Positions 25,031 to 63,163 of a stretch of DNA of 64,000 bases are shown one piece after another. The first letter of the stretch is position 1. Each line of letters starts with the position of its first letter. Position numbers and translations under genes: made by a program. The stretch comes from Planctomycetota bacterium (GTDB taxonomy: Bacteria; Planctomycetota; UBA8742; UBA2392). The stretch is from assembly GCA_020845475.1 (NCBI GenBank), contig JADLFN010000039.1, positions 62,001 through 126,000 of the forward strand, read 5' to 3'. Under the pieces are notes generated by a model, which was given only the letters and a program-made list of their open reading frames with translations, was not told the DNA's origin and did no database searches.

Positions 25031-25120
25031 GGAGGAGTGGCAGAGCGGCTGATTGCGTCGGTTTCGAAAACCGATTGTGCCGAAAGGTACACGGGGGTTC
25101 AAATCCCTCCTCCTCCGCCA
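25031..25120 (+). tRNA. tRNA-Ser(CGA)
   Basis: GGAGGAG/CTCCTCC acceptor with encoded CCA; anticodon stem TCGGT-TTCGAAA-ACCGA (anticodon CGA); long class II variable arm; GGTTCAAATCC T-arm. Confidence 0.95.
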
Positions 25121-25134
25121 TACTAAGTGCAACC

Positions 25135-25267
25135 CGTGGCTGGCGACGCCTGTCGCCAGCCGACAGGCCAAGAATGCCGCTCAGCTGGCGCACTCTTCGA
25201 CTTCATCGAAAATGGGCGTGCGTTGTGGCTGGATTGAAGAAGCTGGCGACAGGCGTCGCCAGCCACG
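25135..25267. repeat. twin-hairpin (REPIN-like) inverted repeat element
   Basis: CGTGGCTGGCGACGCCTGTCGCCAGC (25135..25160) is exactly reverse-complemented at 25242..25267; each arm itself folds (CTGGCGAC-GCCT-GTCGCCAG). Confidence 0.85.
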
Positions 25268-34661: not shown

Positions 34662-34787
34662 CTTTGGAGTGCGCCGGCTTGCCGGCGCTCTCTCTGGCCC
34701 ATAGCCCGCAGGGATGTGCCCGGCGAAGCCTTGGCGAGGTCGGAAGCCTGCGCGTCCAAAGCGGCGGCAAGCCGCAGCACTCCAAAG
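34662..34787. repeat. twin-hairpin inverted repeat element with compensatory change
   Basis: CTTTGGAGTGC...GCACTCCAAAG ends; left arm GCGCCGGC-TT-GCCGGCGC, right arm GCGGCGGC-AA-GCCGCAGC. Confidence 0.8.
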
Positions 34788-34804
34788 GGGTGAATAAGGA
34801 ACAC

Positions 34805-34865
34805 GGGGAGGGCACCATGCCCTCCCCGCTCCCGGGGCGTGGGAAGACCGAGGCGCCTTCCCACG
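34805..34865. repeat. two adjacent strong hairpins
   Basis: GGGGAGGGCA-CCA-TGCCCTCCCC (34805..34827) and CGTGGGAAG-loop-CTTCCCACG (34838..34865). Confidence 0.75.
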
Positions 34866-38483: not shown

Positions 38484-38513
38484 AAAAGGACGCGGCTTGG
38501 GCCGCGTCCTTTT
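38484..38513. terminator. bidirectional intrinsic terminator
   Basis: AAAAGGACGCGGC-TTGG-GCCGCGTCCTTTT between convergent genes. Confidence 0.92.
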
Positions 38514-55092: not shown

Positions 55093-55116
55093 GATCACGC
55101 ACAGTCCCGCCAGCCT

Positions 55117-55138
55117 GCCCTGAGCAAAGTCGAAGGGC
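55117..55138. repeat. dispersed palindromic repeat GCCCTGAGC-N4-GTCGAAGGGC
   Basis: GCCCTGAGCAAAGTCGAAGGGC; see 22379..22400. Confidence 0.7.
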
Positions 55139-55140
55139 CA

Positions 55141-55434
55141 AGGCTTGTCTTTACACACAACTTTCGGCGAATCGCTGTTGTGAGCCTGCGGAGCAGGCGG
55201 CGAAAAGTAGCGTGGGGCGGAAGCCCCACGAATTCACGGCAAGAAAAACGTCCAAGCCCGCGAAGCGGGCGACGCGGTGTTTGCACGACTTGCACAGAAA
55301 GCGCCGCCCGCTCCGCAGGCTTGACCTTCCCGGAAACGCCGGGTTCGAGGGGCTTCCGCCCCTCGCTATTGAACATCGCCTGCTCCGCAGGCTCAAAGTC
55401 AATTGCCCCACGCGTTGTTTGTAAAGACAAGCCT
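55141..55434. repeat. 294-bp MITE-like nested inverted repeat element
   Basis: Ends AGGCTTGTCTTTACACACAAC / GTTGTTTGTAAAGACAAGCCT (20/21); nested GAGCCTGCGGAGCAGGCG (55182..55199) / CGCCTGCTCCGCAGGCTC (55377..55394, exact); hairpins 55211..55230 and 55346..55365. Confidence 0.85.
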
Positions 55435-55744
55435 GTAAAGGCGGGGAGCCGTTTCGGCACGCGAAAAACACTCCGCGTTGACACACGGGACTGTTGTGGC
55501 GCTGGCTAACAAACCCAAGGCAACACCAAGCCCACGAAGCCACAAGGCCACAAAGAAAGCCAAGGCCAAGCCGCGCGTTGCTAATGTGAGTTGCGCAAAC
55601 CGGGGAATGAACGCCGTGGTTTTGCAAAGCCCGGCTACGGCCCAAGTCAACGCAGGGGAGTGTTTATCTCCGGCCAATGCGCCGGAAATCTGTGCAACTG
55701 ATTCGGGCGGAGCGCACAAAACACCCGCTGCGATTACTAGCCAT

Positions 55745-56593
55745 ATGAAAGCTGAGTCCTGCGAGTTTCGAATTGATGAAGACTTTGCCCACCTGCTCTT
55801 TGAGGAGGGAGAAGGCGTACGCTTGGGCACATCGGTTCGAAAGGTGGTTGTTCGAACCGATGACCCCAAATATCGGCGCGTCGGCGAGTTGCAACACTTT
55901 CTCAATTCTACTGAGGGAAAGCCTTTCTTTTACGGTTGGAAATTCCATCGGGTCTTTGACAAGTCGGAACTCGCAACAGCCGAGAGGTTTCATGTCGAGT
56001 TCCTGAAGCACTTCGAACCAGCGGGCGAAGAGAACGGTACTCGATACGATGAAGATTCCGGTTGCCCTGCGTGCGGGTCGGGAGCGATACAGATAGGCCC
56101 ATTGGTTCTGCCGGCGCGACGGCTGCCAAAATCAGTGGATTTCGCGAGCACAATTGGAGGCGAAAAAGTCGCGTCTGCGCGCGCGAAGAGGATTTTCGAG
56201 CGCGAGCGCATTTCGGGTGTCGAGTTTGGCCCAATCGTCTCCCCCGGGAAGGTTGACGATCAGAACGGTGGGTGGTTTCAGCTCACCATCAAGTCCGCAA
56301 CGGTTAGCGTAGTCCCGCCTACCCTCTTTGGAATTGGTCCGTTTGATATGGATGACGAAGGAATGTACCGCTGCCCTGCTGGCGATAAGCTCGGGTTGAA
56401 TCGGCTCTCAGTAGTCACGATTGAACGGGCAACACAGGGAAAGACAGATTTCATCAGTTCAGCGGGCTACGTTGGCGTCCGACGCGGGTTACTTCGACCC
56501 GAACGATTGATCTTCGTATCTCAGAAAGTGCGGCAACTTATTGAATCGGAACGGCTCAGAGGGCTGTCGTTGGAGGTCGCGCAGCTTACGTGA
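55745..56593 (+). CDS. hypothetical protein with CPACG motif
   Basis: Trimmed to MKAESCEFRIDEDFAHLLFEEGEG...; the upstream part of the listed ORF overlaps repeat sequence and starts with TTG. Confidence 0.55.
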   Translation: MKAESCEFRIDEDFAHLLFEEGEGVRLGTSVRKVVVRTDDPKYRRVGELQHFLNSTEGKPFFYGWKFHRVFDKSELATAERFHVEFLKHFEPAGEENGTRYDEDSGCPACGSGAIQIGPLVLPARRLPKSVDFASTIGGEKVASARAKRIFERERISGVEFGPIVSPGKVDDQNGGWFQLTIKSATVSVVPPTLFGIGPFDMDDEGMYRCPAGDKLGLNRLSVVTIERATQGKTDFISSAGYVGVRRGLLRPERLIFVSQKVRQLIESERLRGLSLEVAQLT

Positions 56594-56712
56594 GTAGCAT
56601 TGTCCGCCTGAACAATGACTGGGAGTGGATGATTGATTAGTTCGGGTGGAGTAACGGCCCCTTCTTTGGGGCGGCTACTAGTGGTGCGAATCGTCGGGTG
56701 GAGGGGAGGCGC

Positions 56713-56761
56713 GGAGCTAGGCCCTCCGGGCCTAGTCACTAGGGCCGGAGGCCCTAGCTCC
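56713..56761. repeat. twin-hairpin element with compensatory change
   Basis: GGAGCTAGGCCCTCCGGGCCTAG-TCA-CTAGGGCCGGAGGCCCTAGCTCC; arms 21/23 complementary and each self-complementary. Confidence 0.85.
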
Positions 56762-56877: not shown

Positions 56878-57396
56878 TTACTCGGCTTCGCGGATGTCGG
56901 GCAGCGTGCGGTGTTTGCCTTCGATGTCCATGCCGTAGCCGACCAAAAACGCGTCGCGCTCGAGGTCGAAGGCTACGTAATCGCAATCGAACTTCACTTT
57001 GCGCCGCGCGCGCTTGTCCACGGCCACGGCATACTTCAATGAGCGCGGGCCCTGCGCGCGGATGGCTTCGTCGAGCGCGCTCAGCGTTGTGCCCGTGTCG
57101 ACCAAATCCTCGATCACCAGCACGTCGTAGCCGCTGCAGTTGGGCAACTGGCCGCGAAACAGTGGCGCGCCCGAACTTTTGGCGCCGACGTAACTCGTCA
57201 GCCTCACGAAATCGAGCTCCGGCTCCAGCGCGGCTATGCGCCGGATCAGGTCGCTGGCGAAAAAGAATCCGCCGCGCAGCACGACAAGGCAGAGCATGCG
57301 CTTGCCCTTGTAGTCCTTGAGGATTTGCGAAGCGAGCGCATCAAGGCGCTTGGCGATCTGGGCTTCAGAGAAGAGCACTTTCTTGGGCGCGGGCAT
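56878..57396 (-). CDS. hpt: hypoxanthine phosphoribosyltransferase
   Basis: MLCLVVLRGGFFFASDLIRRI, DVLVIEDLVDTGTTLSALDEAI (PRPP motif), DFLVGYGMD-type tail. Confidence 0.92.
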   Translation of the reverse strand: MPAPKKVLFSEAQIAKRLDALASQILKDYKGKRMLCLVVLRGGFFFASDLIRRIAALEPELDFVRLTSYVGAKSSGAPLFRGQLPNCSGYDVLVIEDLVDTGTTLSALDEAIRAQGPRSLKYAVAVDKRARRKVKFDCDYVAFDLERDAFLVGYGMDIEGKHRTLPDIREAE

Positions 57397-59338: not shown

Positions 59339-59372
59339 GCAAGACGCGGAGAGAGCACTCTCCGCGTCTTGC
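59339..59372 (+). terminator. strong hairpin, probable terminator
   Basis: GCAAGACGCGGAGAG-AGCA-CTCTCCGCGTCTTGC, perfect 15-bp stem; short T-rich tail. Confidence 0.7.
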
Positions 59373-61971: not shown

Positions 61972-62994
61972 TTATTCGCCTTCCTTGGGAGTTTCCTTGG
62001 GAGCTTCACCGCCTGTGTCTGAGCCGGCACCACTGCTCACGCTCTCGCCCGAGAACTTGCGGATCACGTCCTGGCCGGGCCACATGATGTGGTCAGGCGA
62101 GGTTCCAACCGCCACCGGAATCGGCTGATTCTTGGCGTTGGGCTGGGACATGTCGATGCGGTAAGCGGACTGTTTGATCTCGTTCTGTTCGTTCTTGCCT
62201 TTAAGGTACATGTTGTAACCCGTCTGGCCCCAGAAACCACCGAGCACGTCGTCACCCTGAATCATGCCCATGGTCGGGAACGTGCAGAACAGGAACAGGA
62301 ACAGGATGAAGGTAATGCCCGTGAGCACCTTCCAAACGATGCCTTCGTTGGGCACGATTTCGACGTACTTGATCTGCTCCTGGATCTGCACCGGGCCGGG
62401 CATGCCCATGGGCGGGCCGGCAAAGCGAGCAGGCGCAGCAGCCTGCTGCGGCGGGGCTTCATCGAGTTCATCAAGGGCTTCGACGGGCTCGGTTTGCAGG
62501 CCGAGGTCGTCTTCTTCCTTGAGGTCGAGGCCGCCGGTTTCAATCTTCTGCGTGGCTTCGGCATCCTGGCCTTCACCGAAATCCAAGCCGCCGAGTTCGT
62601 CGGTTTCGTCGAACACCAGCTCTTCGGTGAGCGTCGCGTCCTGGTCTTCGCCGCCGCCGACATCGGACAGCTCGACAGTCGGCACCGAGGTGGCGCCGGT
62701 ATCTTCGAAGTCCTTGTCGCCGGAGATGTTGCCGAGGTCGAGCAGGGTTTCGTCGGTTTCTTCCTCGACGACCTGCAGGCCTTCGCCGCCGACCTGGGTC
62801 TCGCCCAGATCCACCTGCTCGCCCACGTCCTTCTGGCGAGTCGAGGCCAGGCTGTTGACGTCCTCCGCACGGAACTTCATGCGGTCTTCGTCGCGGAAGG
62901 CGCGAATCTGGCCCTCGGAAACGAGCCTTTTCAGCTCGTCTTCGTCCATCTCGAGTTCTTTGAGAACTTCATCGAACGAACGGTACTTGGTCAT
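61972..62994 (-). CDS. membrane-anchored helix-turn-helix (excisionase/MerR-like) protein
   Basis: MTKYRSFDEVLKELEMDEDELKRLVSEGQIRAFRDEDRMKFRAEDVNSLAS HTH-17-like, long acidic linker, TM VLTGITFILFLFLFCTF. Confidence 0.7.
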   Translation of the reverse strand: MTKYRSFDEVLKELEMDEDELKRLVSEGQIRAFRDEDRMKFRAEDVNSLASTRQKDVGEQVDLGETQVGGEGLQVVEEETDETLLDLGNISGDKDFEDTGATSVPTVELSDVGGGEDQDATLTEELVFDETDELGGLDFGEGQDAEATQKIETGGLDLKEEDDLGLQTEPVEALDELDEAPPQQAAAPARFAGPPMGMPGPVQIQEQIKYVEIVPNEGIVWKVLTGITFILFLFLFCTFPTMGMIQGDDVLGGFWGQTGYNMYLKGKNEQNEIKQSAYRIDMSQPNAKNQPIPVAVGTSPDHIMWPGQDVIRKFSGESVSSGAGSDTGGEAPKETPKEGE

Positions 62995-63163
62995 TGCGTT
63001 GGTCCCGTTGATACGCGTTAGCTCGCGGCTGGGCCGCAAAGCTGTAAGCCTGCCGCTTGGGGGGCAGGCTTACAGTATGGTGCAATTCGGCTTGCGGTTC
63101 AAGCCTGTATCTCGGCACTCCCAAGCCGTGATGCCGATATGACAGGGCCGTCAATTGCGCGTG

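Follow-up and report, generated by a model that had tools for sequence, protein, structure and literature searches.

Element A, located at 55141–55434 of the window (the whole 64,000-nt stretch analysed, i.e., positions 62001–126000 of contig C39 in a 4.27-Mb MAG with 94 contigs and 77% completeness), was very probably a non-autonomous MITE/REPIN-like derivative of a single-strand transposon, the parent of which had a Y1/HUH transposase of subclass-1.2 type. This element was larger than the earlier note had described, and it was composed of two inverted half-arrays with three hairpins each plus outer arms. Each half-array displayed the order HPa–HPb–HPc (stem and loop: 6 bp and 3 nt for HPa, 8 bp and 4 nt for HPb, and 6 bp and 3 nt for HPc), HPb being the hairpin already seen in that note, and the inner arms of 52 nt spanned 55181–55232 and 55344–55395. 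The left half-array (55181–55276, plus strand) contained (i) HPa at 55184–55202 on the minus strand, reading GCCTGC-GGA-GCAGGC plus GGCG and thus 5'-CGCC tagged on the bottom strand; (ii) HPb at 55207–55230 on the plus strand, with GTAG tag at 55207–55210 and then CGTGGGGC-GGAA-GCCCCACG at 55211–55230; and (iii) HPc at 55256–55274 on the minus strand, reading GCCCGC-GAA-GCGGGC plus GACG and thus 5'-CGTC tagged on the bottom strand. The right half-array (55300–55395, minus strand) contained the inverted counterparts: HPc at 55302–55320 on the plus strand (5'-CGCC tag on the top strand), HPb at 55346–55369 on the minus strand (CGAGGGGC-TTCC-GCCCCTCG at 55346–55365, and ATAG tag at 55366–55369 on the bottom strand), and HPa at 55374–55392 on the plus strand (5'-CATC tag on the top strand). 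The left and right half-arrays scored 97.9 bits (E 4.4e-18) and 92.9 bits (E 4.2e-17), respectively, with R1, a covariance model of the half-array of which both were training members, and both were also matched by R2, a wider model trained partly on 30 transposase loci.

The outer arms of element A (55141–55161 and 55414–55434, 95% complementary; TTGTCTTTRCACA type) were found around only three of the eight copies in the genome, namely those in the window, C4 and C76 (by eye for C4 and C76; loci L030 and L035). A DNA search with these arms gave no match elsewhere, both hits belonging to a different repeat at 55111–55139; this ~28-nt repeat (CCTGAGCAAAGTCGAAGGG type) adjoined element A and had matches at C26:68042 and C4:478.

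Genome-wide counts in the own genome were obtained by sequence searches, and the A-type ~205-bp inverted array was present there in eight copies (the window plus seven further places). The C15 copy (C15:~157–904) harbored a 149-aa ORF matching PF01797 between its two inner hairpins, while the same halves were separated by ~20 non-coding nt in the window copy and the six other places; the simplest reading of these sequences is that the seven gene-free copies would be internal-deletion derivatives of a C15-type parent. This parent, with a single occurrence in the assembly, sat near a contig start in the 77%-complete MAG and was ~750 bp in length with space for tnpA only, without tnpB, and its two ends, inverted arrays of three hairpins each, shared 83% identity across 126 nt; the HPb of C15 and one HPb of C46 held an extra insertion within the hairpin. 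Like a MITE, element A was short and non-coding and shared its inverted ends with a parent in the same genome that carried a transposase gene. The other copies were only ~73–75% identical to that of the window, and therefore the transposition was not recent. In G014, a six-contig assembly, the ends of one tnpA clustered with 17 dispersed half-arrays, which, as judged from the sequences, repeats the parent/derivative picture of C15.

The C15 TnpA (149 aa) gave 58.5 bits with the IS200/IS605 model NF033573 (cut-off 55) and passed the cut-off of PF01797, and its PDB relatives were 2f4f and 2ec2. It carried the motifs DHMH, WQRGYGAF and YIETQEEHH, without an NP-type Y motif, and Y[IVL]xxQxxHH was found in 42 of 45 loci. 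By motif and length only, it would be placed in subclass 1.2 (Y---Q--HH, DHxH, WQ, ~148 aa), for which I or V is listed at the x of DHxH (PMC6006769), while C15 had M there.

The earlier note had connected the twin hairpins with REPINs mobilized by RAYTs, and one part of this connection stood, since a Y1 transposase was tied to A. A classical REPIN, i.e., two inverted GTAG-REPs moved by a RAYT of group 2 or 3, would agree with the inverted doublets, the dispersed copies, the NTAG before HPb, the few divergent transposase copies per genome, and the presence in the own genome of other Y1 genes whose tyrosine motif is of the NP type. However, the parent's gene reached only 26.7 bits with the REP-associated tyrosine transposase model NF047646 (REP_Tyr_transpos; cut-off 80), its tyrosine motif differed from the NP one found in classes 2.x, and each half held three hairpins with opposite-strand YGYC tags in place of one REP, making a RAYT origin of A unlikely. 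A separate REP-type Y1 gene (NHVH, YVLSNP) was observed at L007 (G000:C18:44948–45157 plus flanks), in frame within a ~1000-aa open frame whose first part resembled an FAD monooxygenase and whose second part resembled an NADH:flavin oxidoreductase; the insert had hairpins on either side.

The tags were compared across 103 distinct half-arrays from fetched loci. HPb was preceded by TAG in 92 of them (TTAG 47, ATAG 28, and GTAG 16); GTAG repeats are defined by GT[AG]G at the base of the hairpin. The HPc tag lay on the opposite strand to the HPb tag and had G at position 2 in 87/103, Y at position 3 in 97/103, and C at position 4 in 98/103 (TGTC 37, TGCC 30, CGTC 3, plus similar ones); the HPa tag was less regular, and in the own genome the YGYC-type tag was mostly CGTC or CGCC. 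One end thus joined GTAG-like and CGTC-like tagged hairpins on opposite strands.

The paired swaps between arms had been taken in the earlier note to mean that each arm was kept as its own hairpin and was more than one half of a long inverted repeat, and compensatory swaps in A do discriminate between these two. The swaps proved correct for A, and in all six aligned two-half copies HPb paired locally at 15–16 of 16 positions but across the arms at only 11–14 of 16 (broken at 2–5 of 16), which supports the reading that each arm was kept as its own hairpin. Thirteen own-genome half-arrays without the HPb insertion, aligned with MAFFT without structure, had 98.5% of cells paired (33–51% in slid controls) and 14 double-changed cells against a shuffle mean of 3.5 (none of 500 shuffles as high), which bore out the covariation that had been proposed as a check; HPb variants included CGTG, CGAG, CGAT, CCAT and CCAA, each time with the compensating partner present. 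The 103 half-arrays gave 98.6% paired cells, 333 double changes versus 80, and double changes in 19 of 20 pairs, in an alignment that was fitted to the model (alignments from R1 and R2 lean to their own structure). The left/right difference of HPb, seen in 7/7 derivatives, was no greater than expected if the observed stems were paired at random (p about 0.2 by a hand estimate). The complete element A folded at z = -11.3, and in its single-strand minimum-energy fold the long cross-arm hairpin formed in place of the local hairpins; energy alone would have missed the latter, because the DNA fold favours the long hairpin.

Of 31 genomes searched with R1, 14 contained half-arrays (the own genome, 12 of 15 same-genus or same-family relatives, and 1 of 15 more distant ones), and array count followed transposase count with a Spearman coefficient of 0.83 over the 31 genomes and 0.81 within the family. 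When R2 and a transposase search were applied to 151 genomes of the phylum, arrays were present in 38 and the transposase in 40: 34 had both, 4 arrays only, 6 the transposase only, and 107 neither (Fisher p 3e-23, or 8e-19 with the own family left out, these values ignoring phylogeny while related genomes are not independent); the positives spanned more than 20 families. The four genomes with array matches and no detected transposase relative, G030, G060, G098 and G124, may hold orphan arrays, or their parent may have been missed by the search or the assembly.

The flanks of the transposase genes displayed the same organization. A significant inverted repeat (E<1e-3) connected the 600-nt flanks at 28 of 30 transposase loci, compared with 7 of 300 random own-genome stretches, and R2 placed a plus-strand array on the left and a minus-strand array on the right of at least 21 of the 30, including C15 and C17 of the own genome (R2 having been partly trained on these loci); a third own-genome transposase gene, in C18 (L003), had the same arrangement. 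Arrays on both flanks were also found outside the R2 training set: (i) in L127 and L132 (Planctomycetota), L133 (Bacteroidota) and L137 (Terriglobales); (ii) in three more genomes of the phylum (L211, L212 and L214); and (iii) on a plasmid of the cultured Bacteroidota isolate Persicobacter JZB09 (L206), there on both flanks with R1. A covariance model of this type detects arrays in the phylum and also outside it. Among named relatives, the one closest to the array-linked transposase came from a Planctomycetota MAG (49% identity). On a Bernardetia plasmid (L205) with the same transposase type, the flanks were matched by neither R1 nor R2; a different inverted repeat, with GCTGCGTAGCTGC hairpins plus ATATTTGTAGAA, was observed there.

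An empty orthologous site, another check that the earlier note had proposed, was found for a further copy. For this check, the site orthologous to that of the window copy could not be used, since the region was not syntenic in the relatives, only the 56885–57387 part matching well, with no twin hairpin beside that match in two same-genus genomes; the C40 copy (L036 1476–1715) was therefore used. This copy lay between trpE and trpG (gene names read from the translated junction), and in two same-genus genomes the trpE/trpG flanks were contiguous, with 1 bp from stop to start and the ~240-bp insert absent. Insertion in the G000 lineage would be the simpler reading of these sequences, the alternative being precise loss in both relatives. 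With a six-hairpin insert between the two genes, the translation coupling of the pair may be affected.

The arrays might instead be under selection in transcripts as RNA terminators, attenuators or mRNA-stability structures, with the transposase link secondary: strong covariation is expected for RNA too, one copy lay between trpE and trpG, and an action at the RNA level is assumed for many REPs (PMC3733652). That account is highly improbable given that the arrays flanked the transposase as inverted pairs across phyla and tracked its presence, that their structure was strand-symmetric and matched no Rfam family, and that the trp-junction copy was absent in two sister species; RNA effects following insertion are possible.

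The three twin hairpins of the earlier note were borne out, all six hairpins being located where it had placed them, but they were not one kind of thing. Perfect stems of at least 8 bp with a loop of 2–8 nt numbered 35 in the window versus 10–13 in five first-order Markov shuffles; a lone 8-bp hairpin is weak evidence because about a dozen per window arise by chance, and hence it is the copies and the covariation that carry the case. Palindromes arising by chance from the high GC content of the genome, to which these shuffle counts and the lack of a family for B lend some colour, are refuted for A and C, since A was multi-copy, covarying, tagged and transposase-linked, and this extremely improbable explanation is left as a possible reading for B alone.

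The suggestion of several unrelated REPIN-like families in this genome, and with it the proposed genome-wide copy check, held for A and C, which were multi-copy and unrelated, and failed for B. Element C (34663–34786), with hairpins at 34671–34688 and 34761–34778, was an inverted doublet of TTTGGAGT-GCGCCGGC-TT-GCCGGCGC type units and a member of a dispersed family with 49 own-genome matches, some overlapping; all five loci inspected were inverted doublets. About 20 distinct fully paired hairpins were seen in this family, and the C-G to G-C swap described for C, together with one uncompensated base, was correct and recurred across the sequences examined (GCGCCGGC, GCGGCGGC and GCGGTGGC, each 8/8 paired). 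No transposase was found beside the C family units, and C is a separate REPIN-like doublet family. Element B (56713–56761), a twin hairpin CTAGGCCC-TCC-GGGCCTAG / CTAGGGCC-GGA-GGCCCTAG with 24-nt arms (56713–56736 and 56738–56761, 92% complementary), lay beside ORF 56878–57396 (minus strand), at its 3' end; its hairpins at 56717–56735 and 56739–56757 and the paired swap between them were confirmed. It was unrelated to A (an insignificant R1 match at E 7.5 and none with R2) and was rejected as a family, having one solo relative in the own genome (C26:69162–69180, beside another hairpin type) and none in the 15 relatives searched. Other hairpins observed were (i) a TGGCTGGCGACGCCCGTCGCCAGCCA family, with an inverted doublet at 25137–25265 just after a tRNA (25031–25117) and further members at L003 1104–1129, L044 near 1470, and L019 9159; and (ii) long perfect hairpins with 11–15-bp stems at 59339–59372, 38484–38513, 63042–63075, and 34804–34828.

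For A as a derivative of a single-strand transposon, the parent would be the 149-aa Y1/HUH IS200-like transposase gene between two inverted three-hairpin ends, and the derivatives would have lost the gene and kept both ends. TnpA would recognize the hairpins in single-stranded DNA (e.g., the lagging-strand template), with the tetranucleotides 5' of the hairpins, NTAG for HPb and YGYC for HPc and HPa, as putative recognition or guide sequences, and would excise the element and then insert it at another place. With inverted ends, the left half of each strand would present an NTAG-tagged hairpin and the right half YGYC-tagged ones, and either strand could therefore be the substrate. For IS608 and some TnpA-REPs, it is established that tagged hairpins are recognized in single-stranded DNA and that tetranucleotides take part in choosing the cleavage site (PMC8266576), and by analogy we infer binding, strand choice, cleavage and the mobilization of derivatives by TnpA.

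Subclass 1.2 has been described, mostly from Cyanobacteria and Bacteroidetes, with a median of 148 aa, no REP and, as a rule, no terminal structures of the IS200 type (PMC6006769). The parent here shared with it the short HUH protein, the motifs, and the low copy number with divergent copies, but differed in having inverted three-hairpin flanks and dispersed derivatives and in being common in this phylum; a subclass described without end structure thereby gains ends and a set of derivatives.

Di Nocera et al. (PMC3733652) reported that CGTC repeats never flank a transposase gene, and the families CGTC-1 to CGTC-4 have an 8–9-bp stem, AT first pairs, a 4–5-nt loop, and a CCA tail. A-type arrays shared with them a 5' CGTC (also TGTC) tag by a short perfect hairpin and the dimers in opposite orientation, and their tag fitted as YGYC; they resembled CGTC repeats but were not members of the four families, because the stems differed (6 bp with loop 3, and no AT pairs at the base); the A-type arrays also flanked a transposase. 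A transposase between matching arrays suggests an enzyme for hairpin repeats reported without one, and with CGTC-like tagged hairpins linked to a transposase, what moves such palindromes becomes testable. Subclass-1.2 TnpAs may, as a tentative and rather doubtful extension, be widespread strand-symmetric single-strand transposons with NTAG plus YGYC ends, from which orphan CGTC repeats elsewhere descend or by which they were moved; if so, subclass-1.2 elements would supply the dedicated transposase that CGTC repeats reportedly lacked.

The comparison was also applied to three other systems. (i) REPINs, defined as two inverted REPs, dispersed and non-autonomous, shared with A the inverted doublets of tagged hairpins and mobilization inferred for a Y1 protein (PMC3116915), but A had another transposase class and three hairpins per half; compensatory changes, common in REPINs across the long hairpin (Bertels and Rainey, PMC3116915), lay in A within each local hairpin. 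Inverted, dispersed and non-coding but with a non-RAYT parent, A appears REPIN-like in organization and not REPIN/RAYT by transposase class. (ii) IS200/IS605 elements (IS608 and ISDra2) and PATEs (PMC3119063) shared the TnpA family, palindromes near the ends, and non-autonomous derivatives that arise through loss of the core; terminal inverted repeats are lacking in PATEs, whereas A-type ends were inverted and multi-hairpin, and these three-hairpin arrays departed from the asymmetric ends with single subterminal hairpins of the IS200/IS605 layout. (iii) TIRYTs, with the TIR consensus GGGG[AT][CG]A[CG] (PMC3733652) and mostly of subclass 2.1 (PMC6006769), shared a Y1 gene between long inverted repeats and moderately abundant dispersed copies (PMC3733652), but they belonged to another transposase subclass and were not described as tagged three-hairpin arrays.
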